NCBI GenBank assembly: GCA_020853795.1
Contig: JADYYF010000101.1
Location: 1-41,154, forward strand
DNA: 41,154 nt
From: Candidatus Zixiibacteriota bacterium
GTDB lineage: Bacteria; Zixibacteria; MSB-5A5; CAIYYT01
Direction of reading: 5' to 3'
The position numbers and the translations under genes are program-made. The notes under the pieces were generated by a model. That model was not told the origin of the DNA and did no database searches. It saw only the letters and a program-made list of their open reading frames with translations. Below are positions 15,099 to 41,154 of this stretch, piece after piece. Numbering within the stretch: position 1 is the stretch's first letter; each line of letters opens with the position of its first letter.

Positions 15099-15124
15099 CG
15101 GCGATGCGGGAAGAAAGTTGAAGA

Positions 15125-16525
15125 ATGATTATGAAACTCTCTCACCTGAATCGTAACCGGCGCTGGACTGTGCTCGCAGCCGCGCTGGCGCTGATGCTGG
15201 CCGCGGTGTCGCTGGCTCAATCAAGCGACAAGCGGCTATTCACGGCGCAGCTCTGGAACCTGGATCATCCGGTGGACATCTACGTGTACAATCCGAATCG
15301 CGAGCCGCTGGAATTGCCGCCGCCGATGACGCTCCCCACCTATTCGGAATTCCACGGCAAGGGCATCAATGAGAACAACCTACCCGATGCCGTCAAAGTC
15401 GGCGGAAATATCACCATCTCCATTGACTATCAGGATAGCACCGGCGAAGGCTTCTATGATGCCACGCTCGGTTCGGCGCGACGCAGTGCTTTCTCGCAGG
15501 CATTGGCAATCTGGGCATCGTATTTGCAGGGCCCGGCAACAATCACCATCGCCGCCAGCATGACGCCGCGTGGCGGCGGTCCGGGCAGCGCCACGCTCGC
15601 ATCCAGCGGTCCAGAACAGTGGCGCTACGAACCAGTCAATGCCCCGGTCGCGCAAACCTGGTACCCATCGGCGCTTGCGGAAATCGTCGGCGGTGTCGAT
15701 ATCGACCCCGATCGCGCGGAGATCGCCGTCGATTACAACAGCGATGTCGACAACTCCTATGTGCTCGGGAGCATCGACTGGTATTACGGCAATGATGCCA
15801 ACCCCGGGAATGATGTTGATTTCATGATGGTGACGCTGCACGAGATGTGCCACGGCTTCGGCATGGTCGCCTCCTTCAAGAGCACCGGCACCTGGGGCCT
15901 CGACTATGACGGTACGCTCTACCCCGTCATTTATGATCGCTACCTGGTCGACAGCTCCGGCACGTTGCTGATCAACAAGCCGGTTTCACCATCAGTAGTG
16001 ACGGGACATAACGTTTTCTGGAACGGCGCGATCGCCAAGTATGCGTACACGCACGACTTCGGCGGCACCTTCCGCCTGCCGATCTACGCGCCGACGCCCT
16101 GGGACGGCGGCTCGAGCATCAGCCATATCGATGAGGCCACCTTCAGCGAGTCGGTCTGGGAGCTGATTACGCCGGAGTACGATGAACCGATTATTCACAC
16201 GCCCGACTTGATCTGTCTCGGGATTTTCCAGGATATGGGCCACAGCCTGTCGCAGTCGCGTTACGTCAAGTTGACGGCGTCCGGTTTCGAGGACGGCAGC
16301 AGCGGGAATCCGTTCAACACGATCACGGAAGGCACGACCAATGTCCCGACCGGCGGGCATCTGCGCATCTACTCCGGCTCCTACGCCGGCGCCCGCACGA
16401 TCACCAAGGCGATGACCTTGCACAGTTGCGGCGGCACGACGGTACTGGGGACGGCGAAAAGCGCAACCGCGCGGGCCGATACGCTGCAGGGGGCGGACCG
16501 CGGCCCGGTGATCGAAGACCAGTAG
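15125..16525 (+). CDS. Secreted HExxH zinc metalloprotease
   Basis: A signal peptide (RRWTVLAAALALMLAAVSLA) is followed by a protease domain with the zinc motif HEMCHGFGM at residues 239-247 and a conserved-looking YPVIYDRYLVD stretch about 20 residues later. The HExxHGxG pattern recalls zincin families in which the third ligand lies further on. I cannot identify that ligand with certainty. After about residue 375 the sequence turns into what looks like the start of a right-handed beta-helix (YVKLTASGFEDGSSGNPF, then TITEG and GGHLRIYSGSY), but only about one or two coils are present before the stop, so the module is either very short or truncated. The start could be ATG 15125 or ATG 15131; neither has a strong ribosome site, which fits translational coupling to the gene upstream. 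Confidence 0.82.
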   Translation: MIMKLSHLNRNRRWTVLAAALALMLAAVSLAQSSDKRLFTAQLWNLDHPVDIYVYNPNREPLELPPPMTLPTYSEFHGKGINENNLPDAVKVGGNITISIDYQDSTGEGFYDATLGSARRSAFSQALAIWASYLQGPATITIAASMTPRGGGPGSATLASSGPEQWRYEPVNAPVAQTWYPSALAEIVGGVDIDPDRAEIAVDYNSDVDNSYVLGSIDWYYGNDANPGNDVDFMMVTLHEMCHGFGMVASFKSTGTWGLDYDGTLYPVIYDRYLVDSSGTLLINKPVSPSVVTGHNVFWNGAIAKYAYTHDFGGTFRLPIYAPTPWDGGSSISHIDEATFSESVWELITPEYDEPIIHTPDLICLGIFQDMGHSLSQSRYVKLTASGFEDGSSGNPFNTITEGTTNVPTGGHLRIYSGSYAGARTITKAMTLHSCGGTTVLGTAKSATARADTLQGADRGPVIEDQ

Positions 16526-19009: not shown

Positions 19010-21217
<2,208 letters not shown>

Positions 21218-21253
21218 TCAAGTATGATTCGTAATTCATATTAATACTATCTA

Positions 21254-21270
21254 ATAACAGTTCCTATTAT
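21254..21270. promoter_or_regulatory. Putative PerR operator in front of katG
   Basis: The imperfect palindrome ATAACAG-TTC-CTATTAT lies between perR and katG, about 50 bases before the katG start. Its 13-base core AACAGTTCCTATT differs at one base from the core in front of perR (21783-21795). Confidence 0.65.
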
Positions 21271-21307
21271 GCGACGCGCCGGTCATGGCGGCGTAGGATT
21301 CCGGCCA

Positions 21308-21763
21308 TCAGGACTTCGGCTTGCACCGGGAGCAAAGGCCGCTGATCACGACGTGCTTGATCTCAAGCTTCTGCCAGTGCGAAATCGACTTCGGCGGCTT
21401 CATGCGATCGAAATCCGGCCAATAGAAATCCTCGATCTCGTGGCATCGCTTACAAACCAGGTGGTGATGATCAGAGATATTAACGTCGAGGCGGGCGGCG
21501 TTGTCAATGTGATAGACTTTGCGCACCAGGCCGTACTCCTCGAAAGTGGCAATCGTCCGGTAAACGGTGTCCAGCGAAATCGTCCTGAGTTGTTGCCGCA
21601 CCTGCTCGTATACGTTTTCCACGGTCGGATGATTGTCGTGTTGGAGGAGCGCCCGGAAGATCTCGGTGCGCTGATGGGTGACTCGGAGTCCCTTGTTTTT
21701 GCAGACCGTCTCGAAGCGGGCCATCATCTGAACTTGGTCGATCTTACCCTGTCTCATGATCAA
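21308..21763 (-). CDS. perR: Peroxide-sensing Fur-family repressor PerR
   Basis: This 151-residue protein has the Fur-family winged helix (LRVTHQRTEIFRALL, then TISLDTVYRTIATFEEYGLV) and a C-terminal dimerisation domain. Aligned by eye with Bacillus PerR, all five regulatory-metal ligands are present: His45, Asp93, His99, His101 and Asp112. Asp93 stands where Fur has Glu, which favours PerR over Fur. Two CxxC pairs (Cys104/107 and Cys144/147) make the structural zinc site. PerR with Fe2+ is inactivated by H2O2 through oxidation of its His ligands. The frame begins with TTG at 21763, which is 8 bases after AAGG; ATG at 21757 is an alternative. It has its own promoter with an operator overlapping the transcription-start region, and katG follows downstream. 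Confidence 0.92.
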   Translation of the reverse strand: MIMRQGKIDQVQMMARFETVCKNKGLRVTHQRTEIFRALLQHDNHPTVENVYEQVRQQLRTISLDTVYRTIATFEEYGLVRKVYHIDNAARLDVNISDHHHLVCKRCHEIEDFYWPDFDRMKPPKSISHWQKLEIKHVVISGLCSRCKPKS

Positions 21764-21781
21764 TGCAACAGCCTTATTGCC

Positions 21782-21796
21782 AAATAGTTCCTATTT
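21782..21796. promoter_or_regulatory. Putative PerR operator in front of perR
   Basis: The perfect palindrome AAATAG-TTC-CTATTT lies just downstream of the predicted -10 of perR, where a bound repressor would block transcription. Its core is shared with the site before katG. Confidence 0.7.
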
Positions 21797-21801
21797 AGGA
21801 A

Positions 21802-21829
21802 TATATAGAACCAGTGACTCGGGCCGCAA
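21802..21829 (-). promoter_or_regulatory. Promoter of perR
   Basis: On the minus strand TTGCGG (21829-21824), a 16-base spacer and TATATA (21807-21802) lie upstream of perR, with the PerR palindrome a few bases further downstream. Confidence 0.5.
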
Positions 21830-22509: not shown

Positions 22510-24201
22510 ATGACGTCTCATGATTACATGCAGATCGCCCTTTACATCGCGGCACTCATCGTGCTTGCGCCGCTGTTGGGGAGCTACATGGCCCGCGTGC
22601 TGCGCGGGGACCGGCATCTGCTCTCGGCGCCCTTGGGTTGGCTGGAGCGCGGCATCTACCGCCTGGCCGGCGTGAATCCGTCCGAAGACACGCCTTGGAA
22701 GATCTACGCCTGGCAGCTTCTGCTCTTCAACTTCTTTGGATTTCTGGTGGTCTTTCTGCTGCAAATGACTCAGCAGTGGCTGCCGCTCAATCCGCAGGGA
22801 CTCCCCGCGGTTTCCTGGCACTCATCATTCAACACCGCCGTGAGTTTCATGACCAACACCAACTGGCAGGGCTATGGCGGCGAGGTGACGATGAGCTATC
22901 TCACGCAGATGCTCGGCCTCACCGTGCAGAACTTCGTCTCCGCCGCAACGGCCATTGCGGTGCTGCTGGCGTTGGTGCGGGGCTTCACGCGCAAGTCGAC
23001 CGCGCTGGTCGGCAATTTCTGGGCGGACTTGGTGCGCACCACCGTCTACATCCTCCTGCCGTTGTCGATCGTGCTGTCGGTGGCGCTGGTCGGGCAAGGA
23101 GTAGTGCAGTCCTTTGACAGCTACCAACCTGTAACCACGATTGAGCGACAGGAGCAGATCTTGCCGCTCGGCCCGGCGGCCTCGCAAATCGCTATCAAAC
23201 AGCTTGGCACAAACGGCGGCGGATTCTTCAATGCGAACAGCGCAGTGCCCTATGAGAACCCTACGCCCTTTTCGAATTTCCTTGAGATGCTGGCCATCCT
23301 GCTCATTCCGGCGGCCTTGACCTACACTTATGGAAAGCTCATCGCAAATCAGAAGCAGGGTTGGCTGATTTTCGGCGTCATGCTCCTGCTCTATTTGGGC
23401 GGGCTGACGGTGTCGCTCGCGAGTGAACAATACCGCAACGAGGCCCTGGGCATTGCCGCCAATTTGGAAGGAAAAGAAGTCCGCTTCGGTGTAACTAACA
23501 GCGTGCTCTGGTCAACCGCCACGACTGCGGCTTCGAATGGATCGGTCAACGCCATGCAATCGAGTTTGACGCCGCTCGCCGGCGGCGTCGCAATGTTCAA
23601 TATGATGCTCGGCGAGATCATCTTTGGCGGTGTTGGCTGCGGCCTGTACGGCATGATCCTGTTCATCATGCTGACCGTCTTTCTTGCGGGGCTGATGGTT
23701 GGTCGAACGCCGGAGTACCTTGGCAAGAAAATCGAGGCACGCGAAGTCAAGTGGGTCATCGTGGCGATTGTTGCTCCCAGCGCCGTGATGTTGATCCTAT
23801 CGGGGATCTCCGCGGTGGTCCGGCCCGGCCTTTCCAGTCTCGCCCATGCCGGACCGCATGGTCTGAGCGAGATTCTTTACGCCTTCGCTTCCGGCGCGGG
23901 CAACAACGGCAGCGCCTTTGCCGGCCTGAACGCCAACACCGTCTACTATAATGTGCTCATCGGCATCGCAATGCTCATTGGCCGGTTCGCGGTGCTGTTG
24001 CCGGTACTGGCGATCGCGGGCTACATGGGCGAAAAGGGGATTGCACCGCCTTCAGCCGGGACGTTTTCGACCACTGGCAGTGTCTTCGCCATTCTGCTGG
24101 TCGGCGTCATCCTGATTGTCGGCGCCCTGACTTTCATTCCGGCGCTTGCGCTGGGTCCGATGATCGAACACTTCCTTATGAACGCCGGGCAGACATTCTG
24201 A
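22510..24201 (+). CDS. kdpA: KdpA, K+-translocating subunit
   Basis: KdpA is the channel-like membrane subunit that selects K+ for the KdpFABC ATPase. This 563-residue protein has about ten hydrophobic helices and the family's selectivity-filter segments: [31 protein letters not shown] and [14 protein letters not shown]. Length is normal for the family. The ATG is preceded by GGGAG, and its stop precedes the kdpB start by about 10 bases. Confidence 0.97.
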
Positions 24202-24211
24202 GGTGCAAAGC

Positions 24212-26344
24212 ATGAGAACAACTACCACCGGCAAAACAGCGACAGCCACAGTCACGACGCCCACCACTGCTGCTGCGTTGCGGTCGCTGGTCGGCCCGGC
24301 AGTTCTTGAAGCCTTTCGCAAACTGAGCCCGCGCGTGCAGTGGCGTAACCCCGTGATGTTTGTCACCGAGGTTGGCGCGGCGGCCGTTACCATCGTCATG
24401 GCCGCGGGGCTTGCGCACGGCCGCTTTTCCGGATTTGAGCTGCAGATCGCCCTGTGGCTCTGGTTCACGGTGCTGTTCGCCAATTTCGCCGAGTCCATCG
24501 CCGAAGGGCGCGGCAAGGCGCAGGCGGAAAGCCTCAGGAAAGGACGATCCAAAGTTGTCGCCAAACGGCTTCAGGGCTCACAAATCGAGAATGTTCCTGC
24601 CGAACTCCTGAAACGTGACGACCTCGTCGTGTGCACAGCCAACGACATGATTCCGGCGGATGGAGAAGTCATCGAAGGCATCGCCTCGGTCGACGAATCG
24701 GCCATTACCGGCGAGTCGGCGCCGGTCATTCGGGAAAGCGGCGGCGATCGCAGCGCGGTCACGGGGGGCACCCGCGTCATCAGTGATCGCATCGTGGTCA
24801 AAATCACGGCCGAACCCGGCCACGGCTTCGTCGACCGGATGATCTCGCTGATCGAGGGGGCCAAGCGACAGAAGACGCCCAACGAAATCGCTCTGGGAAT
24901 CGTGCTCGCTGGGCTCACGATCATCTTTCTTCTGGTCGTCGCCTCACTCAAGTTCTTTGCGGACTACAGTGCCGCGGCAGCACATCAGGAACTTGCGAAC
25001 ATTGTGACCGTGCCGGTACTGGCAGCGCTCTTGGTCTGCCTCATCCCGACGACGATCGGCGGCCTCTTGAGTGCGGTCGGCATTGCCGGCATCGACCGCC
25101 TTATCCGGCGCAATGTCATCGCCACCAGTGGCCGCGCCGTCGAAGCCGCCGGGGATATTGATGTCCTGCTCATGGACAAGACCGGCACGATCACGCTTGG
25201 CAATCGCATGGCGACAGAATTTCTGCCGGCGCCAATGATTACCGCGCAGCATCTATCCGAGGCCGCACAGTTGGCCTCGCTCTCCGACGAAACCCCGGAA
25301 GGACGTTCGATCGTGGTCTTGGCCAAAGAGAAGTACGGCCTGCGGGCGCAGTCACTGACACCGCACCAGGCACGTTTCATTCCGTTCTCCGCGTCCACCC
25401 GCATGAGTGGCGTTGATATCACCGAAGACGGCGAAGTTGTCATGCCGATTCGCAAGGGATCGCTCGATGTGGTGCAGCGTTATGTTGAGATTCAGGGCGG
25501 CGCTATGCCACCGGAAGTCGTCGCCGCAGCCGAGCGCATTGCCGCGGCTGGCGGCACGCCCCTGGCCGTAGCCAGCGACCGGCAGGTGCTCGGCGTGGTT
25601 CATCTCAAGGACGTCGTCAAGGGTGGGATTCGCGATCGGTTCGCCGAACTGCGCCGGATGGGCATTCGCACGGTCATGATCACCGGCGACAACCCGCTGA
25701 CGGCCGCGGCCATCGCGGCCGAGGCCGGCGTGGACGATTTCCTCGCTCAGGCGACACCGGAGATGAAATTGCAGCGCATCCGCGAGGAGCAGCGCCAAGG
25801 CCATCTGGTCGCCATGACCGGCGACGGCACCAACGATGCGCCCGCGCTGGCCCAAGCTGATGTCGGTGTCGCCATGAACACCGGCACACAGGCCGCCCGC
25901 GAGGCCGGGAATATGGTCGACTTGGACAGCAATCCGACTAAGTTGATCGACGTGGTTGAGACCGGCAAGCAAATGCTCATGACCCGCGGCGCACTCACCA
26001 CCTTCAGCATCGCCAATGATGTGGCCAAGTACTTCGCCATCATTCCGGCAATGTTTGCTTCACTCTACGCTGCGCCCGGCAGCCAAGTGGGTCCACTGGC
26101 GACGCTAAACATAATGCGACTGGAGTCCCCGCAAAGCGCCATTCTCAGCGCCGTGATCTTCAACGCTCTGATCATCATCGCGCTCATTCCGCTGGCCCTG
26201 CGCGGCATCACTTACCGGGCCCAGGGTGCATCGGTAGTCTTGCGGCGCAATTTGCTCATTTACGGACTGGGCGGGCTAGTGGTGCCGTTTGTCGGCATCA
26301 AGCTCATCGATTTACTGGTTTCCACTCTGGGACTGGCGGGGTAG
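24212..26344 (+). CDS. kdpB: KdpB, P-type ATPase subunit
   Basis: KdpB hydrolyses ATP to drive K+ uptake with KdpA. This 710-residue protein has the phosphorylation motif [12 protein letters not shown] (Asp near residue 322), the actuator loop [11 protein letters not shown] and the hinge [18 protein letters not shown]. The TGES Ser that is phosphorylated to inhibit the E. coli pump is conserved. ATG 24212 has GAGGTG about 6 bases upstream; an in-frame GTG at 24203 would add three residues but overlaps that site. The first 25 residues are Thr-rich and look disordered. Confidence 0.97.
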
Positions 26345-26354
26345 GAGCATCGAA

Positions 26355-26915
26355 ATGAAAAGTGTATGGCAATCGCTGCGCATGCTCGCCGTGCTTAGTC
26401 TGCTGACCGGCGTGCTTTATCCGCTGCTTATAACCGGTCTGGCTCAGGCACTGTTCCGGGACCAAGCCAACGGCAGCATCATCACCAGCGACGGGAATCG
26501 CATCGGCTCGACCCTTATGGGCCAGGCGTTCTTGTCTGACAAGTATTTCTGGCCGCGACCCTCGGCGACCGGATACAACCCGCTGCCCTCGTCCGGAACG
26601 AACGCTGGACCCACCAGCTCAGCTCTTCGCGACTCGGTGAGCGCCTGGGCTGGTCGATTCCATTCGCCGATTGCGGCGATACCACCGGACTTGCTCACGG
26701 CATCGGGCAGTGGGCTCGATCCGCATATTACGCCTGAAGCTGCGCGTTTTCAGACAGCTCGGATCGTGGCCGCCCGCGGTCTTGACCCCAGCCGAGAAAT
26801 GGAGGTGGAGCAATTGATTCGTGAGCACACCGAACCTCCGCAATTCGGGCTCTTTGGCCAATCCCGGGTGAACGTGCTGCGCCTTAATTTGGCACTGGAT
26901 TCTCTCCTGCGGTAA
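26355..26915 (+). CDS. kdpC: KdpC, K+ pump assembly subunit
   Basis: KdpC has one N-terminal membrane helix (MLAVLSLLTGVLYPLLITGL) and a periplasmic domain; it is needed for assembly and activity of KdpFABC. Family signatures are GSTLMGQAF, YFWPRPSATGYNPLPSSG and PHITPEAA. Length is 186 residues. A frame opens upstream at 26289 inside kdpB, but ATG 26355 follows TAGGAG and starts directly before the helix. Confidence 0.96.
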   Translation: MKSVWQSLRMLAVLSLLTGVLYPLLITGLAQALFRDQANGSIITSDGNRIGSTLMGQAFLSDKYFWPRPSATGYNPLPSSGTNAGPTSSALRDSVSAWAGRFHSPIAAIPPDLLTASGSGLDPHITPEAARFQTARIVAARGLDPSREMEVEQLIREHTEPPQFGLFGQSRVNVLRLNLALDSLLR

Positions 26916-26930
26916 GGGTACCTTTTCGCT

Positions 26931-29624
26931 ATGTCTGACGCAGGGCGCCCCGATCCGGATCGACTCCTTCAGGCGATCAGCCGCGAAGCGAAGTCGCAGG
27001 CAACCGGCAAACTGCGGATCTTTTTCGGCATGTCTGCCGGCGTCGGGAAAACCTACGCCATGCTCGAGGCTGCTCAGCAGCGACGGGGTGAAGGCATCGA
27101 TGTCGTAGTTGGCATAGTGGAGACGCACAGTCGCGTGGAGACCGAAGCCCTGCTGACCGGTTTGACGATTATCCCCCGCCGAGAACTTGCCTACCGCGGC
27201 ATCGCCTTGCAGGAGATGGATCTTGATGCCGTCCTGGCGCGCAATCCGCGCCTGGTTCTGGTCGATGAACTGGCACATACCAATGTCCCGGGATCGCGAC
27301 ACCCCAAGCGCTGGCAGGACGTGGTCGAGCTTCTGGATGCGGGCATTGATGTCTACACGACCCTGAACGTTCAGCACCTTGAGAGTCGCAAGGAATATGT
27401 CGAGGAGATTACCGGCATCACGATTCGCGAAACCGTTCCCGACACGATTCTGCAGCGCGCCACTCAGATTGTATTGGTGGATATCACACCCTCGGAATTG
27501 CTGCAACGACTGAAGGAAGGCAAAGTCTATCTGGGCGACAAAGCCGAGATGGCGGCGCAGAATTTCTTCACCGCGGATCGTCTGACCGCGCTGCGGGAAA
27601 TCGCTTTGCGCATCACCGCGGAAGCTGTCGACCAGGAACTGCAGGGTCTGACCGCCTCCCACAGCGCGGCGGGGCCATGGAAGATCACCGAACGACTGAT
27701 GGTGGCAGTCAGTCATAGCCCCCACTCCGAGGATCTGATCCGCTCGACGCGCAGGCTTGCCTTCAGTCTCGGCGCATCGTGGATTGCCGTCAACGTTGAT
27801 AACGGAGCCGCGCTTGGGGCCGACGATGCGCGACAACTAGATCGAAATCTGTCGCTCGTGCGCGAATTGGGCGGTGAAGTCGTCAACATCACCGACGTGG
27901 ACATCGGTGAAGCCCTGGCACAAGTAGCCCGCCAGCGGGGCATCACGCAGCTGGTCATCGGTCACCCCGGTCAGCGACGCCTTCGGGATCTGTTGGGCGG
28001 GGGTACGCTTCTGGACCGGTTATCCGAACGCGCGACCACCTTCGACATCCATGTACTCAAACCCGAAAGAGCCAAACGACTCCTGCGCCGACCGCTGGGG
28101 GACCTGCGAACCGAGTCGTCTGCTGCACACTACCTGCTGGCCGTCGGTACGATTGTCGTGGCGTCGTTGTTGAGTGCGGCGCTGCTTCCTGTCATCGGCT
28201 ATCACGCCGTCGGCTTCGTTTTTTTGATGGGCGTCTTGCTGATCAGCCTGTTCGTTTCGCTCGGTCCGATGCTGCTGGCCGCACTCCTTTCGGCGGTGGT
28301 GTGGAACTTCTATTTCATTCCACCCGTCGGGACTTTTGACATCGGAGAACCTGCCGATATTGCGATGTGCGTTGCCCTGCTGGTGGCGGCATCGGTAACC
28401 GGCACCCTGACCGGCCGCATCCGTCGCCGTGAACGACTGCTGCGCGCCCGCGAACAGCGCACGACGGCTCTCTATCAGCTTGCCAGCGACCTCTCGGCCG
28501 CGCTCGATCAAGCGGCGTTGGAGAAGGCCATCTCCGCCAACCTGTCAACCTTGTTGAAGGTCGAGATCGGCATTGCGCTTAAGTCATCCGAAGGCGAGCT
28601 GACTCTTCACAACTCTGCTTCCGCGGACCACTGGATGAGTGCGGCGAAAGAGTGGGCCGTGGCGCGCTGGGCCTTTGAACACCGCAAACCGGCCGGGTGG
28701 TCCACCGACACTCTGGCTTCTGCCGGCGGGATGTACATCCCCTTGATCGGCCCCTCGGAAAGCGTCGGTGTTCTGGGACTCAAGCGGCGTGAGGACCGTC
28801 GGCTCTCCAATGACGAGATGAATCTCCTGTTGACGGCTGCGCGGCAACTGGCGGTGGCGGCGGAACGGGAGCTGTTTCAAGAACGATCGCGGCGCCTGCA
28901 ACAACTGCAGGATTCCGAGCGCTTGTACCAGACGATCTTGAATACCGTCTCCCACGAATTGCGTACACCCTTGACGGCAATTATCGGCAACGCCTCGGCC
29001 CTGGATAACGAACAGATCGCGAACGATGCGACGAGACGAAAGCAGTTGTCGGTGGAGATCATCACCAATGCCGAACGACTCAATCGCGTTGTCTCCAATC
29101 TGCTGGATATGTCGCGCTTGAATTCCGGGAAGATGGTGCTTAAGCGCGATTGGCATGATCTGACCGATCTGGTCTCGGTGACGCTCGATTCGCAGCGGTC
29201 AGCATTGGCCGGTCATACCGTCACGGTGCGGTTAGCCGATGGCTTGCCGCTCGTGCGCGTCGACTTCCATTTATTGCAGCAAGCTCTGGCGAACTTGTTG
29301 GTCAATGCCGCAACCTATGCGCCGCCTCAGACTGTTATTGAAATTGGAGCGCGGGTGGCTGATCAGACAATTGTGCTCTCTGTCACCGACCAGGGTCCCG
29401 GGCTGCCGACAGAGGCGATCCCGCATTTGTTCGAGATGTTCTTCCGAGGACCCGGATCAAAACCCGGCGGTGCCGGGATTGGGCTGGCGATCACCCGCGG
29501 CATCGTCGAACTGCATGGCGGAACGGTCACGGCGGAGAATTTGACTCCCGGCGGCGCGCGCTTTGCGATCAGATTGCCGGTCGACACCCAGCCCCAATTG
29601 CCGCAAGACCGGAGTGAAGTGTGA
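26931..29624 (+). CDS. kdpD: KdpD, sensor histidine kinase
   Basis: KdpD senses K+ limitation or osmotic state and phosphorylates KdpE. The 897 residues show the expected order: N-terminal KdpD domain with Walker A (GMSAGVGKTYAML, Lys40) and VDELAHTNVPGSRHPKRW, a universal-stress-like domain (about 250-370), four membrane helices (about 400-490), a GAF-like domain (about 500-650), the HisKA box SHELRTPLTAI with His675, and the ATPase domain (NAATYAPP, DQGPGLP, GAGIGLAI). All catalytic motifs are intact. It starts 15 bases after kdpC and its stop overlaps the kdpE start. Confidence 0.97.
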   Translation: MSDAGRPDPDRLLQAISREAKSQATGKLRIFFGMSAGVGKTYAMLEAAQQRRGEGIDVVVGIVETHSRVETEALLTGLTIIPRRELAYRGIALQEMDLDAVLARNPRLVLVDELAHTNVPGSRHPKRWQDVVELLDAGIDVYTTLNVQHLESRKEYVEEITGITIRETVPDTILQRATQIVLVDITPSELLQRLKEGKVYLGDKAEMAAQNFFTADRLTALREIALRITAEAVDQELQGLTASHSAAGPWKITERLMVAVSHSPHSEDLIRSTRRLAFSLGASWIAVNVDNGAALGADDARQLDRNLSLVRELGGEVVNITDVDIGEALAQVARQRGITQLVIGHPGQRRLRDLLGGGTLLDRLSERATTFDIHVLKPERAKRLLRRPLGDLRTESSAAHYLLAVGTIVVASLLSAALLPVIGYHAVGFVFLMGVLLISLFVSLGPMLLAALLSAVVWNFYFIPPVGTFDIGEPADIAMCVALLVAASVTGTLTGRIRRRERLLRAREQRTTALYQLASDLSAALDQAALEKAISANLSTLLKVEIGIALKSSEGELTLHNSASADHWMSAAKEWAVARWAFEHRKPAGWSTDTLASAGGMYIPLIGPSESVGVLGLKRREDRRLSNDEMNLLLTAARQLAVAAERELFQERSRRLQQLQDSERLYQTILNTVSHELRTPLTAIIGNASALDNEQIANDATRRKQLSVEIITNAERLNRVVSNLLDMSRLNSGKMVLKRDWHDLTDLVSVTLDSQRSALAGHTVTVRLADGLPLVRVDFHLLQQALANLLVNAATYAPPQTVIEIGARVADQTIVLSVTDQGPGLPTEAIPHLFEMFFRGPGSKPGGAGIGLAITRGIVELHGGTVTAENLTPGGARFAIRLPVDTQPQLPQDRSEV

Positions 29625-30307
29625 TGGGTGCGCGGATCCTGGTCATCGATGATGAATTGGCGATCCGCCGTTTCCTCCGGCTCAGCCTGGAGGCGGAAGG
29701 GCATACTTTCATCGAATCCGAAGGCGGCGAAGCGGGACTGATTGCCGCTGCCACGCATCGCCCGGAGCTGATTGTTCTCGATCTGGGCCTGCCCGATCTG
29801 GACGGCATGACGGTGCTGAAGCGGCTGCGCGAGTGGTCGACGGTTCCTGTGATTATTCTCACCGTGAGAGATTCCGAAAGTGAGAAAGTAGCGCTGCTCG
29901 ATGCCGGCGCTGACGACTACCTCGCCAAACCGTTCAGTGTCCCGGAACTCCTGGCCCGCGTGCGCGTAGCGCTGCGCCACCAGCAGACCGGGGTATCCGC
30001 GCCGTCGGTTCGCGTGGGTGACCTGGAGATCGATTTCACCGATCGCACGGTCTTGCTGCGCGGCGTCCCAATTAGACTGACTGCGACCGAGTACGAACTC
30101 CTGCGAATCCTGGCCAAACACCACGGCAAAGTCGTCACTCAAAGGCAGTTGTTGAAAGACGTCTGGGGACCACAATCGGTGAACCAGTCGCAATACCTGC
30201 GCGTCTATATCGCCCAGCTCCGCAAGAAATTGGAGCGTGACCCGAGCCGCCCCAGGTATATCATCACGGAACCAAGCGTAGGATATCGACTGAGTTCTGG
30301 CGAATAG
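29624..30307 (+). CDS. kdpE: KdpE, response regulator of kdp
   Basis: This OmpR-family regulator of about 227 residues has a receiver domain with the acidic pair (VIDDE), phospho-acceptor Asp53 (VLDLGLPDLDG) and switch Lys (DDYLAKPF), then a winged-helix DNA-binding domain (VVTQRQLLKDVWG, YLRVYIAQLRKKLE, VGYRLSSGE). The ATG at 29624 shares one base with the kdpD stop; a GTG one codon earlier is also possible. It would bind the T-rich box at 22224-22240. Confidence 0.96.
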   Translation: MGARILVIDDELAIRRFLRLSLEAEGHTFIESEGGEAGLIAAATHRPELIVLDLGLPDLDGMTVLKRLREWSTVPVIILTVRDSESEKVALLDAGADDYLAKPFSVPELLARVRVALRHQQTGVSAPSVRVGDLEIDFTDRTVLLRGVPIRLTATEYELLRILAKHHGKVVTQRQLLKDVWGPQSVNQSQYLRVYIAQLRKKLERDPSRPRYIITEPSVGYRLSSGE

Positions 30308-35988: not shown

Positions 35989-38898
35989 CTATTTTTGAGC
36001 TTCGACGCTACCCAGATACAAGTCCAGCCAGTTGAGAATCTCCCTAATGAGCTGATTCCGTGGGAGGAAGTGGCTGGTCTCATAGACTACCTGTTTCTTC
36101 TGATTTGGGGCGGTGCCCAGCAGTCTAAACATGGGTAACTGCGAGGTTTCATACGGAAAGTAATAATCATATTTGCCGTTGAGCATGAGGACGGGCATCT
36201 TGATGTGGCCGATAAAGTTGATGGCATCGACTTCTGGAAGCGCTTTGTTGAAGGAAAGGCCGGCCACATTTAATACAGTGACCTTGAACCGCCGTTCGAT
36301 TGCCGGCATGATTGCTCCCATCTCGCCGCCCCAACTCCAGCCAAAATAGGCTATCTTTGAGGTGTCAATGTCGGATCTCGTCTCTAAGTAGTCGATAGTG
36401 CGACCTATATCTTTTGCCCAAGCCACGACATGATCCCGCCACAGAACTGTCTCGTTCGGATAGTCCGTGTTCAGTTTGCTACCTCGTTCAAAGGTCCCCT
36501 TAAGAATCGGATAAGCGAGAGCCCGACCGCTCTTAACAAGAAAGTCGATACCTGAAATGAGCCGACGTGAACTACTTGATCGTTCGTAGATGTCGTCGGA
36601 TCCCGGGAAGAAGACCACTACCTGCAAGGGGGGCTTCGCACCCTTTGGCAAGAAAACGTAAGCTGTCATTCTCTCGCCTCCGTATGCGGCATCGAAAGAT
36701 ACTTTTTGAGAGATCCACTCATCGGCTGAGTCTCTCGACTCGATCTTCTCGTTCAGAGGAGCATGATCATATTCGAAAATAGATAGGTACTGTCTGAAAA
36801 CTCGGTCTGATACTGGTTTTTCCTTCATGAAGTTGCGAAACGCGATCTTGATTGGTGCATAGGCAAGAGACTCCGCGACTGCCGGTCTCAGAATCTTGAC
36901 ACAGCGAACTCCGTTGGTGGGAGAGCGATCAAGAGGTGGTTGGGCATAAAGATCCATAAATGAGTAAGACTGATCATTCCACCCGCCTCCAAGAATGCAG
37001 CGTTCACTACCGCTTTGATTGAAGCACCATTCCCGCACGTTCCCAGCCAGGTCATAGGCGCCACAGGCAGTGATACCTTGACCGACAGGAGTCGGGCCGC
37101 TCCCGCTGAAGTTGCTCGCGGGAATGATGTATCGAGCTTGGCGTGTAAATGCCGCGAGATTCCAATGATATACGGTTGGCAGAGTTTTCTCCCGGAACTC
37201 CGCATAGGCAGCGGCTTCGTACCAGCTGATACCACCAACTGGATAGTCCGCTTCGTCCTTTCGATAGGTTCCCATTTCCCACGTAGAAGGTCCCGGCCGA
37301 CCAGTGGCATCCACAAACTCAGCCATGGATTGCTCCCAGGAAAGAGTCTGTCCTCTGTCAATCACCGGATATTTCCAGAACAATTTCTTGCGGTATCCAC
37401 CGCTATCGACGAACTCTTTATACTCACGATTTGTGGCTTCGAATTTGTCGATAAAGTAATCTCCTAATTGAGCAGAGTCGCCGGTAGCGTCAAGTATGCA
37501 TGTTGGCGTTTCTCTCCTGACACGCACCATTTCCGTCGGAATTGAACCCACTGAATCCAGGTCGATTGCGCGCTCACCCTGGAAGCTCAAAGCGACCGCT
37601 GTCAGGTCCAGCGTAACAAACCCTGCTCTCTCAATCCGGACACGTACTGAGCCAAGCGGGAAATACGCGCTGTCTATCGGAGTCCGACCAAGGTAGAGCC
37701 ATTGTGTATCAGCGGCGGTATATTCTCTCAAGTAGACTCGGGCATCTGCCGGATTAGTTTTGATCGAAACCTTGACCGAAAATTTCGACCACAGTTTTGT
37801 CAACATAGGATCATTGTGGATATAGGACTCAGCTTCCTGTGCGAGAAAATAGGCCTTCTCCCATCGGCTCTCAGCAGCGAGGCTGTCGATGGCCGGCAGG
37901 ATCACTTCTCTTGCCCATCGCACTTTGCCCGAGTATTGGACGGCACTAATCAACCAGTACACGGCGACCGCCACGATTAGAACAATCGGAATGGAGATGG
38001 CTGGGCGCATGGCGACCCTCAAGTAGCTACGCCTGGTGGGTTGCTGAGCCAATGTCAACTGGTGAAGAGCAGTAGCCATCTCCGCAGCACTTGTCCACCG
38101 GTGATCTGGAGCTTTGTCCAAGCTTCGACTGATGATGCGCTGCAGTGCACCACCAAGAATGAGAACGCCGTCCGGCAGTGGCGCCGGATCATCATACGCG
38201 ATCGCATGAAGGGTCGCCGCTTCGGTATCGCGCTTGAACGGTTGCCTGCCAGTAATCAACTCATAGAGAACAACACCAAGCGAGAAGATGTCCGTCCGCT
38301 GGTCAACTTGCTCCCCTCGCACCTGCTCCGGCGACATGTAGCCAACAGTTCCGAGAGTCGAACCGGTCTTGGTCAAATGATCTGTTCCACCCACCGACGC
38401 CAGTCCGAAGTCAAGTATCCGCGCTCGCCCGTGAGAGTCGATCAGGACGTTGGCCGGTTTAATATCGCGATGGGTAACGCCTCTTTCGTGTGCCGCCTGC
38501 AACCCCTCGGCAATCTGGATGCCGATTTCCAGCACTTGCGGAATTGACAACTCATGTTGAGATGCGTGCTCCTTGAGCGACCGTCCCTCGATATGCTGCA
38601 TCGCAAAGAAAGGTCGTCCCTGAAATTCACCGACTTCATACACTGTAACGATGTTCGGATGATCGAGCTTGGCGGCGGCCTGCGCTTCACGCTTGAAACG
38701 CGCTCGGCAATCGGCATCCTGACAAAGATGAGGGGAGAGAAACTTAAGGGCGACCTTGCGATTAAGTTCGATATCTTCGGCAAGGTAGACCTCACCCATG
38801 CCGCCGGCACCGATCTTCTCGATGATGCGATAGTGATTGATAACCGTGCCTTTGGAGAGCACCGTCACTGCCTGGGTTTTGTCGTCGTCAGGTGCCAT
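35989..38898 (-). CDS. Ser/Thr kinase fused to PEGA, FGE-like and hydrolase domains
   Basis: The start is ATG 38898 (MAPDDDKTQ), inside the end of the upstream kinase gene; the frame is open 48 bases further, but this start matches the stub copy. The 969 residues contain a Hanks-type kinase (Gly loop at 30-37, Lys52, HRDIKPAN with Asp145, DFG with Asp163), a membrane helix (about 300-320), a PEGA-like beta domain (about 375-430), a formylglycine-enzyme/sulfatase-modifying-factor domain (about 478-670) and an alpha/beta hydrolase (about 735-960) with GWSWGG nucleophile Ser855 and likely Asp911 and His943. In the FGE-like domain the usual GGSW...CR active-site Cys region reads [17 protein letters not shown], so it is probably not an oxidase. 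The kinase would be cytoplasmic and the rest extracytoplasmic. Targets unknown. Confidence 0.9.
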
Positions 38899-41154
38899 AT
38901 TTCTCCAGGAGTTTTTGGTAGCGGGGTAGTCTGCGAAGGGGGTCATACCGGGGATCGAGGCGATAATATGCGACAGAGAAAGAAGAGGGAATCGAAAGCA
39001 AATAGTCCATCTGATCTAGGGCAGCATCATACTCACCGACCATGACGTATATCAAAGCAAGATACTCCACTCTATGTGGTCCCAGCAGAGCGTCTCTGGA
39101 GACAGGGCAAAGCTCGACCCCCCTCTTTCCCTCACGGATTGCGTCATCCTTGCGCCCCAATCCTGCATAAACAAAACCTAGATGACTATGGATGCGATCG
39201 TCGTCGGGCCGCTCATTTAGTTCGTTTTCTAGGATGAGGCGTGCCGAATCAAAATAGGCATGGGCACGCTGCGCGTCACGCATGAGCTCATAGACGATCG
39301 CCGTCAGTTGAGACTTTGGAGTAAAGAGCTGCGGGTCAATTTCCGGTATCCGAGACATTAGTGACAACTCGCCTAAGGCCGCAGGGAAGTCTCGAACAAA
39401 AATATGGTGCCAGAACCAACTATCTCGCGCGAGCTCATCGTCCTGTTTAGGGATAAATGCCAAAGTCGTCCTGGCTTGACTGGTATCACCATTCCACAGG
39501 TAATAGAGAAACGCTTTTTGTTGGTAGGCGTAGACTTGATCCGGCTCAAGAGCGATTGACAGGTTCAGGAACTTCTCTGCCGACGCGTAGTCTCTGAGCT
39601 TGTAATAGGTCCCTCCAATTTCGCTGGACAGCACTGCATTTCGCGGGTTCAGAGCGAATACCCATTCCAGCCTTTCGACCGCAGCCCGGAATTTTCCTTG
39701 ACGCCGCCAGATGTAAGCCTTGGCTCCCAAAACATCGGGATCAGATGGGAGACCGGTTTCCGCAAGCGCTATCTGCTCCAAGGCACGGTCGTAGTCCTGA
39801 AGACACCAATAGTAGTAATATCCCAGTGCAGCGTGTGCCCAGGCGAGGTTTGGCTGGAGTTCAAGCGCCCGATCCACGGCGACCTTGGCTTGATTAGGAT
39901 GATCTTGATCGATGTCGTATTTGTTCAAGTACATCCCGGCATGAACATACCCAAGTTGGGCATAAGCGAGAGCGAATGCAGAGTCAAGGTCTACCGCCTT
40001 CTGAAACATCTGCACCGCCGACTGCCAATTCTCCCTCGTAGGATCGGCTCTTGTCCAGTAGTCCAGCCCTCGTAAATATACCTGATATGCATCTAGGTTA
40101 TGCGTTGGCATCGCCTGCAGAGCAGCGTTCTCAGTCGCGAGCAGAGTGATGTTCATTGCCTCGGCGATTCGTGCGGCAATATCTGCCTGCAATTCAAAAA
40201 TATCGGCCAGCGGACGCTGGTACGTTTCCGCCCACAGATGCGTATCGTCAGACACTCGGATCAATTGTGGGAGAATTCGCACGCGATCGGTGTCACCACT
40301 CTTGTCCCAACTAATGGTCCCTTCGAGAATGTAATCAACACCCAACTCTTTGGCGATCTGCCTAATATTCTTGCTCGTCTTCTTGTACTGCATCGTACTA
40401 GTGCGGGAGATTACCCCCAGTTCACGGATAGTCGCAAGCTTGCCAGTGATTTCGTCAGTGATGCCATCGGCGAAATACTCGTCATCGGGTGATCCGAGAT
40501 TCTCAAACGGCAATACCGCCAGCATTTTGCGCTCAGAGGTCGCCTTCTCGCTTGAGAAAAGATGGGGCTTGAAAATACCGTAAGCAATCACCCCGAGAAG
40601 CACGAGAGCTGCAGCTCCGGCCACCAACCGCCATGGCCGATTCTTTCTTTCCAGTACCCCGGTCAAGAGCTGACTTGTTACCGTCAGGGTCCTCAGATCA
40701 CTAATGACATCAGCAGCCGTCTGACACCGTAATGCCGGGTCTTTCTGCAGCAGCTTCGATACGATCCGCTGCAACTCGTCAGGAACACCCTCCTTGTATC
40801 GCGCCAGCGGTTCCGGAGTCTGCTGTACTATCGCATTCATGGTCGCAGCCGGAGTTTCAGCTTTGAAAGGCGACTTACAGCTGATCATCTCATAGAGCAC
40901 GACGCCGAACGAAAACAGATCGGAGCGATGATCCGTCGATTTGCCCTGAACCTGCTCCGGCGACATGTAGCCGATGGTGCCGAGAGTCGAACCCTCTTTC
41001 GTCAGCTTGTCGGCGCCGGAGACAGCAGCCAGTCCGAAGTCGACCAACTTGGCACGCCCCGATTGACTTACCAGGATATTGGCAGGCTTGATGTCACGAT
41101 GGGTAATGCCGGCCTTGTGCGCTTCCTGCAGTCCCTCGCAGATCTGCAGCGACA
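38888..41154 (-). CDS. Ser/Thr kinase with TolB-like and TPR domains (N-terminus outside window)
   Basis: The frame is open to the right edge; its first visible residues read SLQICEGLQEAHKAG, then [13 protein letters not shown] and the DFG of LVDFGLAAVSGADKL, so the Gly loop and catalytic Lys are off the window. After the kinase comes a membrane helix (RLVAGAAALVLLGVIAYGIF), then a TolB/FlgO-like domain (MLAVLPFENLGSPDDEYFAD, ELGVDYILEGTI, DDTHLWAETYQR) and about ten TPR-like helical pairs to the end (AYAQLGYVHAGMYLNKY, RIHSHLGFVYAGLGRKDDAI). This architecture, with the repeats outside the membrane, is common in Acidobacteria and FCB-group genomes. Its last 11 bases overlap the start of the next kinase gene, so the two are probably translated in a coupled way. 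Target unknown. Confidence 0.92.
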   Translation of the reverse strand, partial: SLQICEGLQEAHKAGITHRDIKPANILVSQSGRAKLVDFGLAAVSGADKLTKEGSTLGTIGYMSPEQVQGKSTDHRSDLFSFGVVLYEMISCKSPFKAETPAATMNAIVQQTPEPLARYKEGVPDELQRIVSKLLQKDPALRCQTAADVISDLRTLTVTSQLLTGVLERKNRPWRLVAGAAALVLLGVIAYGIFKPHLFSSEKATSERKMLAVLPFENLGSPDDEYFADGITDEITGKLATIRELGVISRTSTMQYKKTSKNIRQIAKELGVDYILEGTISWDKSGDTDRVRILPQLIRVSDDTHLWAETYQRPLADIFELQADIAARIAEAMNITLLATENAALQAMPTHNLDAYQVYLRGLDYWTRADPTRENWQSAVQMFQKAVDLDSAFALAYAQLGYVHAGMYLNKYDIDQDHPNQAKVAVDRALELQPNLAWAHAALGYYYYWCLQDYDRALEQIALAETGLPSDPDVLGAKAYIWRRQGKFRAAVERLEWVFALNPRNAVLSSEIGGTYYKLRDYASAEKFLNLSIALEPDQVYAYQQKAFLYYLWNGDTSQARTTLAFIPKQDDELARDSWFWHHIFVRDFPAALGELSLMSRIPEIDPQLFTPKSQLTAIVYELMRDAQRAHAYFDSARLILENELNERPDDDRIHSHLGFVYAGLGRKDDAIREGKRGVELCPVSRDALLGPHRVEYLALIYVMVGEYDAALDQMDYLLSIPSSFSVAYYRLDPRYDPLRRLPRYQKLLEKYGT

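Follow-up and report, generated by a model that had tools for sequence, protein, structure and literature searches.

We identified a pair of palindromic operators, one in front of perR and one in front of the adjoining katG gene, which are real and very probably belong to the PerR protein encoded beside them, and which are of a type predicted before in another organism. In the reading that we favour, to which we assign a probability of roughly 0.87, metal-loaded dimers of the adjacent PerR would occupy paired 7-1-7 boxes and repress perR and katG until peroxide is encountered. A preliminary description of this DNA had proposed a shared operator ahead of the two genes, and as a prediction this proposal is upheld here.

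The window, that is, the whole stretch of DNA analysed (41,154 nt), is the complete contig C101 of a 3.56-Mb draft genome. The two genes concerned lie on its minus strand:

19010 to 21202, minus strand: katG, catalase-peroxidase of 730 aa (TIGR00198, 1213 bits, above the cut-off)
21308 to 21757, minus strand: perR, Fur-family PerR-type repressor of 149 aa counted from the ATG (PF01475, E 2e-27)

The core sequence AATAGTTCCTATT was found without mismatch at 21783-21795 (plus strand), upstream of the Fur-family gene, and AACAGTTCCTATT, which differs from it by one mismatch, at 21256-21268 (plus strand), upstream of katG; the two copies of a 13-base core with a single difference, as originally described, are thus present. 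When the window was dinucleotide-shuffled, at least two matches to the core pattern at up to 2 mismatches were obtained in 2 of 100 shuffles. In the whole 3.56-Mb genome, only the perR and katG copies match AATAGTTCCTATT at up to 1 mismatch. At up to 2 mismatches there are 13 matches, compared with 67 for the reversed control pattern; therefore, weaker matches to AATAGTTCCTATT are not enriched. Elsewhere in the window, a kdp cluster for potassium transport (by Pfam, a P-type ATPase with KdpC, KdpD and a response regulator) occupies 22510-30307 divergently from perR, about 750 bp separating perR from the ORF at 22510. Two overlapping frames at 35989-41047 (minus strand) both carry serine/threonine kinase domains, together with an FGE-sulfatase domain in one and TPR repeats in the other.

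The unit that is conserved was sought in related perR promoters. A set of 83 related perR loci, 80 of which had been retrieved with patterns including ISLDTVYRT, was reduced to 72 at less than 85% identity, and 165 bp around the match start of each locus (150 upstream and 15 inside) were searched without a seed motif. Palindromic EM of width 15 returned TAggAAT.ATTCcTA with a log-likelihood of 200, compared with 21 to 29 in three mononucleotide shuffles, and width 21 returned AAaTAggAAT.ATTCcTAatt with 273 (shuffles, three per width and also mononucleotide, up to 40); the consensus of the 72 promoters reads AaTAggAAT.ATTCcTAat. The half-site spacing L-1-R occurs in 47 of the 72 promoters (control 1.3) and R-2-L in 44 (control 2.9), while half-sites on the same strand recur with a 17-bp period in 23 (control 1.3) and with a 14-bp period in 19, which is also above control, less strongly. 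Double boxes with a 2-bp gap were found in 34 of the 72 (control 0.3), the top value among 24 gaps tried (-8 to 15); gaps of -5 (21/72, the next best) and -2 (15/72) were above control as well. From these spacing and gap peaks it follows that the preferred layout is [7-1-7]-2-[7-1-7], 32 bp long and 17 bp from centre to centre. Judging from these promoter sequences, what is conserved is a 7-1-7 box of 15 bp, TAGGAAY-N-RTTCYTA, often doubled with a 2-bp gap. A double box scoring at least 10 or a single box of at least 9 bits was present in 50 of the 72 perR promoters, and neither in the other 22. In MAGs whose titles name several phyla, perR genes sharing the recognition helix of the window PerR are again preceded by the box, and the paired layout persists there as well.

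In the window, this layout is recognized in front of perR as follows:

21779 to 21810, minus strand: perR operator, TTCTATA-T-ATTCCTA-AA-TAGGAAC-T-ATTTGGC, two adjoining 7-1-7 boxes with strong inner and weak outer half-sites
21782 to 21796, plus strand: junction palindrome AAATAG-TTC-CTATTT, straddling the junction of the two boxes
21800 to 21805, minus strand: candidate -10 hexamer TATATT, picked by eye, overlapping the operator's upstream end

As a double box the operator scores 11.3, the second best distinct place in the 41-kb window, and as a single box it scores low (6.1 bits). All 12 aligned relatives have a homologous block ahead of perR, two of them with the exact AATAGTTCCTATT core, and five of the six nearest relatives share the block TCCTAAATAGGAAC unchanged. 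The double-box score reaches at least 10 in 12 of the 13 perR cassettes, L019 having 5.6.

AAATAG-TTC-CTATTT, which had been named as the palindrome, is literally present at perR, and its arms pair at 6 of 6 positions there, as would be expected if the 15-bp palindrome AAATAG-N3-CTATTT, with its own distinct spacing, were the unit bound. Moreover, AAATAGNNNCTATTT occurs within 2 mismatches in 9 of the 72 perR promoters (control 0.7), part of which may reflect overlap with the real box. Among the 13 aligned perR promoters (that of the window plus those of 12 relatives), however, the 6/6 pairing is seen in the window alone, two promoters having 5/6 and ten at most 4/6, and within 2 mismatches AAATAGNNNCTATTT is outdone by ATTCCTANNTAGGAAT (19/72, control 0.0) and TAGGAATNATTCCTA (13/72, control 0.2). 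We therefore consider such a unit hardly credible; the palindrome was placed in the wrong register, and the 7-1-7 box is what is conserved.

More serious is the reading in which a single dimer sits on ATTCCTA-WW-TAGGAAY, a back-to-back repeat (7-2-7), instead of two dimers binding 7-1-7 boxes. ATTCCTA-WW-TAGGAA is the best conserved inverted repeat at perR, with 5 to 7 of 7 pairs in 11 of the 13 aligned promoters, and the second 7-1-7 box pairs at only 2 of 7 arm positions here and at 2 to 5 of 7 across the 13. These pairing counts indicate that the inner back-to-back half-sites are the part kept at perR. In the de novo search, too, width 16 (aTTCtTAaaTAggAAT, 240) gave the highest score among widths 14 to 17. 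Against a single dimer on this repeat stand the catalase and ferritin-like promoters of L049, L050 and L056, whose 7-1-7 boxes are near-perfect, and the PerR boxes of Bacillus and Desulfovibrio, which have the 7-1-7 orientation. On balance we regard it as unlikely. Two dimers at perR are suggested by the katG, catalase and ferritin-like promoters, in which the first boxes are mostly good 7-1-7 palindromes.

The following boxes were assigned to the katG promoter:

21252 to 21266, minus strand: katG box 1, TAGGAAC-T-GTTATTA, 13.4 bits, the best single box of the 41-kb window
21235 to 21249, minus strand: katG box 2 (weak), TAGTATT-A-ATATGAA, 17 bp from box 1
21219 to 21233, minus strand: possible katG box 3, TACGAAT-C-ATACTTG, 9.2 bits

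Boxes 1 and 2 together score 13.5, the top double box in the window, so that the top two distinct double boxes of the 41 kb are those of the katG and perR promoters. Compared with random 125-bp stretches, which were taken from the same loci with real sites included, the two window operators reached only p = 0.008 and 0.007. Genome-wide, katG box 1 is the only match to TAGGAAYNRTTMYTA at up to 1 mismatch, and it is a perfect one. The possible third box, TACGAATCATACTTG at 21219-21233, lies shortly before the katG start. It is among the three places in the window with single boxes of at least 9 bits; a 12.5-bit single box, GAAGAATGATTATGA at 15120-15134, overlaps the start codon of an ORF at 15125 and is probably due to chance.

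In 6 of the 12 cassettes in which the next gene was open to examination, the window included, a double box scoring at least 10 precedes the gene after perR, namely katG in the window, a catalase gene in L049, L050 and L052, a katG-type peroxidase gene in L051 and a ferritin-like gene in L056 (the next genes were named by Pfam in nine relatives, and the katG of L018 and L019 by eye from the N-terminus). No double box was found before the next gene in the other six, L045 (of the same genus), L046, L047, L018, L019 and L048. Four of these six have a perR-to-katG gap of 5-67 bp; therefore, read-through from perR is likely in them. L045 (108-bp gap) and L048 (94-bp gap) are true misses. Since katG cassettes without a box exist, control of katG by its own box is not universal, and the perR operator, on this comparison of cassettes, is the more constant part. 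The absence of the core from related species, against which the preliminary description had staked its proposal, is accordingly seen at one of the two genes: the perR block is kept in every aligned relative, and the katG box is missing in the same-genus relative.

It might be argued that the conserved block is mainly the core promoter and leader of perR, to which the resemblance at katG is coincidental. The -10-like hexamer does overlap the block, the leader between operator and ATG shows conservation as well across the window and six near relatives, and the same-genus relative lacks a katG box. We find this explanation very improbable, because the same box with the same spacing stands before the catalase, katG-type and ferritin-like genes of L049, L050, L051, L052 and L056, the palindromic model recovers the box, and the katG copy is the genome's single perfect match to TAGGAAYNRTTMYTA. 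As regards the -10 itself, the perR copy had been placed just after it; TATATT can be picked out by eye overlapping the operator's upstream end, and TATAGT- or TATATT-like letters occur at this position in several relatives, but a consensus promoter scan scored no promoter at the perR operator. The leader (21758-21778), conserved in the window, L044-L047, L018 and L019, reads roughly CAATAAGG-NTG-TT..., and in all seven leaders the NTG codon (ATG or TTG in five, CTG in two) is in frame with a TGA that overlaps the perR ATG (ATGA). This frame is possibly a coupled mini-ORF; in the window's copy it is interrupted by an earlier in-frame TGA.

The protein encoded beside the operators is, by its domain and residues, of the PerR type. 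Its FUR domain (PF01475) scores 96.1 bits against a cut-off of 23.1, and the nearest PDB structure is B. subtilis PerR (2fe3, E 1e-21). The equivalents of B. subtilis H37, D85, H91, H93 and D104, which we take to form the regulatory metal site, are all present, with Asp and not Glu at 104, and the four cysteines of the Cys4 structural zinc site (C104, C107, C144 and C147) are invariant across 11 sequences; all nine metal-site residues are common to the window PerR and ten orthologs of 47-70% identity. All named PerR models of NCBIfam remain below their cut-offs (best, NF052545, 94.4 bits against 180). These models are equivalogs of particular PerR groups, and the shortfall weakens the exact name and not the assignment to the PerR type. 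Exactly one Fur-family match, the PerR, exists in the window genome, and thus we see no competing Fur-type protein that could read the box: a separate Fur or Zur of the Fur family was not found in this genome, which is rated 99.9% complete. Two genomes of the same family (G002 and G004) have no Fur-family match. By position the gene is linked to those of peroxide defence: katG adjoins perR here, and peroxidase, catalase or ferritin-like genes adjoin perR in nine relatives.

The closest PerR sequences come mostly from Zixibacteria MAGs. The lack of a Fur-family match in G002 and G004, and the flat identity (67-70%) of the four best matches in other genomes across families, might point to horizontal transfer of the cassette. 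In the tree, however, the window PerR belongs to a supported group comprising 11 rows, of which 6 carry Zixibacteria titles, and resolution near the tips is poor; we therefore do not claim such a transfer.

Further sites in the genome were looked for by pattern searches and by weight-matrix scoring of retrieved stretches. At up to 3 mismatches TAGGAAYNRTTMYTA has 600 matches in the genome, compared with 1801 for the reversed control. Of 38 weak-match loci that were checked (L003-L013 and L125-L151; these leave aside five of the listed 2-mismatch places and the 3-mismatch places of TAGGAAYNRTTMYTA), 33 fall inside open frames of 150 codons or more. Near none of the 38 does a double box score above 7.4, a value reached inside a 791-codon frame. 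The peroxide-gene set comprised 19 rubrerythrin, AhpC/TSA and ferritin loci, with 12 of the 16 AhpC/TSA matches included and L190 and L203 being the same gene. No double box above 3.0 was found near these 19 loci of the window genome. At L194, a peroxiredoxin gene has a single box, TAAGTACGATTCCAA (9.6 bits; L194:1419-1433; G000:C149:4392-4406), 52 bp upstream of its ATG; this box belongs to the five listed 2-mismatch places of TAGGAAYNRTTMYTA outside those 38 loci. At the other 18 loci, single boxes within 250 bp before the match do not exceed 5.9 bits. The peroxiredoxin of the same-genus relative, the only match to the L194 gene at E <=1e-30 in 12 genomes, has 42% identity to it, and no box of at least 9 bits was found upstream of its gene. 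The L194 peroxiredoxin gene may be regarded as a weak candidate for a third target. At L187 and L188, single boxes scoring 12.8 and 13.9 bits are inside open frames, some 800-1400 bp from the match. The further sites anticipated before ferritin-like or rubrerythrin-family genes thus did not turn up in the window genome, and those anticipated before ahpC-type genes came down to one weak single box among 12 AhpC/TSA-family loci. Within the reach of the pattern searches and selected stretches, the PerR regulon appears to be mainly local, with one weak further candidate.

The switch that we propose would work as follows. Loaded with Fe(II) or Mn(II), PerR dimers would bind TAGGAAY-N-RTTCYTA boxes side by side with a 2-bp gap, covering the start region of perR and the upstream region of katG and blocking transcription of both. 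Peroxide would oxidise the metal-site histidines, upon which PerR would release the DNA; KatG and fresh PerR would then be made, and PerR would end the response. Binding, repression, the sensing of metal and peroxide, and the presence of two dimers on each operator are predictions from sequence.

A further proposal concerns a sub-branch of PerR proteins with Asp57 and Arg61 (B. subtilis numbering), which might read TAGGAAY and seat two or more dimers on neighbouring 7-1-7 boxes repeated every 17 bp; we offer it tentatively and regard it as less likely than not. In crystals of Fur with DNA (Deng et al. 2015, PMC4506495), Tyr56 and Arg57 are described as touching bases, the Arg a guanine. By motif position these residues correspond to Y68 and R69 of the window PerR, in which the aspartate D65 lies four residues before R69; B. 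subtilis PerR has Asn at the place of R69. D65 and R69 may be what brings about the GG letters of the box, a suggestion that is weakened by 28 sampled members having the same two helix residues and Glu at 85, whose motif,.aaTAAT.ATTCTTA, has one half without GG. Asp57 and Arg61 alone therefore do not fix the box letters. The association of the two residues with TAGGAAT is also confounded, since the retrieval pattern makes the helix largely the same in these loci, and relatedness among the proteins extends to helix and box alike. Classical overlapping Fur boxes are offset by 6 bp. If the proposal is true, a 17-bp period would amount to about one helical turn beyond that offset, and neighbouring dimers would sit on opposite faces of the DNA. 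Among the papers listed by searches of the open literature, mostly judged by titles and abstracts, none was seen to deal with such an operator in Zixibacteria or with PerR boxes in a 17-bp tandem arrangement.

Altogether, the switch is very probably real and fairly ordinary, and what merits testing is its tandem geometry, together with the link from helix to box. The suggested link of box letters to two recognition-helix residues makes an operator code of this PerR branch testable, and the system offers an example of a peroxide switch whose action seems to be confined mostly to its own locus.

Fur-type proteins of the same class (Glu at 104) share the PF01475 family with the window PerR, whereas their upstream regions (n = 29) carry TGAaa.TgAaTtTCA and not TAGGAAT. 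Among 128 distinct Fur-family proteins from the retrieved loci, all 88 with Asp57 have Asp104, all 29 with Glu104 carry Ala, Ser or Thr at 57, and the remaining 11 combine Asp104 with a residue other than Asp at 57.

B. subtilis PerR represses its own gene and has a catalase target. The window system resembles it in the 7-1-7 spacing, the metal-site residues and the Cys4 zinc site, and differs in the box, where GG or AG replace A/T bases of TTATAATNATTATAA, and in the recognition helix, where Asp and Arg stand in place of Ala57 and Asn61. Only 1 of the 72 perR promoters matches TTATAATNATTATAA within 2 mismatches, and 12 (control 0.4) within 3, compared with 13 and 27 for TAGGAATNATTCCTA. The box is accordingly not of the Bacillus type in its letters, as the preliminary description had held; the different spacing that it had also assumed is not borne out, because 7-1-7 is common to both (L-1-R in 47/72) and the letters alone differ.

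The closest likeness is to Desulfovibrio, for which Tables 7 and 11 of Rodionov et al. 2004 (PMC545781) give the PerR signal AwnAGnAAtngTTnCTnwT, with AATAGGAATCGTTCCTGTT before rbr2 as an example; there, the Bacillus-type box is reported as not found, PerR regulons are described as mainly local, and katG is a predicted PerR target only under a different signal, that of Desulfuromonas. By comparison of Table 7 with the 72-promoter consensus, the window has the same half-site AATAGGAA within a 7-1-7 palindrome: its left half is identical to that of D. vulgaris rbr2, and in both cases the 7-1-7 arrangement lies inside a 19-bp palindrome, the sites precede perR itself and peroxide genes, and the regulon appears small and local. 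With respect to the same tables, the window boxes differ in that their right halves are degenerate, the left halves alone matching well, and in that they are paired with a 2-bp gap whereas the PerR sites listed there are single; the target in the window, moreover, is katG. To call the operator lineage-specific, as was first suggested, is hence too narrow, since the box occurs in MAGs titled as several phyla and matches this published signal. The range of the operator type predicted in Desulfovibrio would thereby come to include Zixibacteria-like bacteria as well as MAGs whose titles name other phyla.
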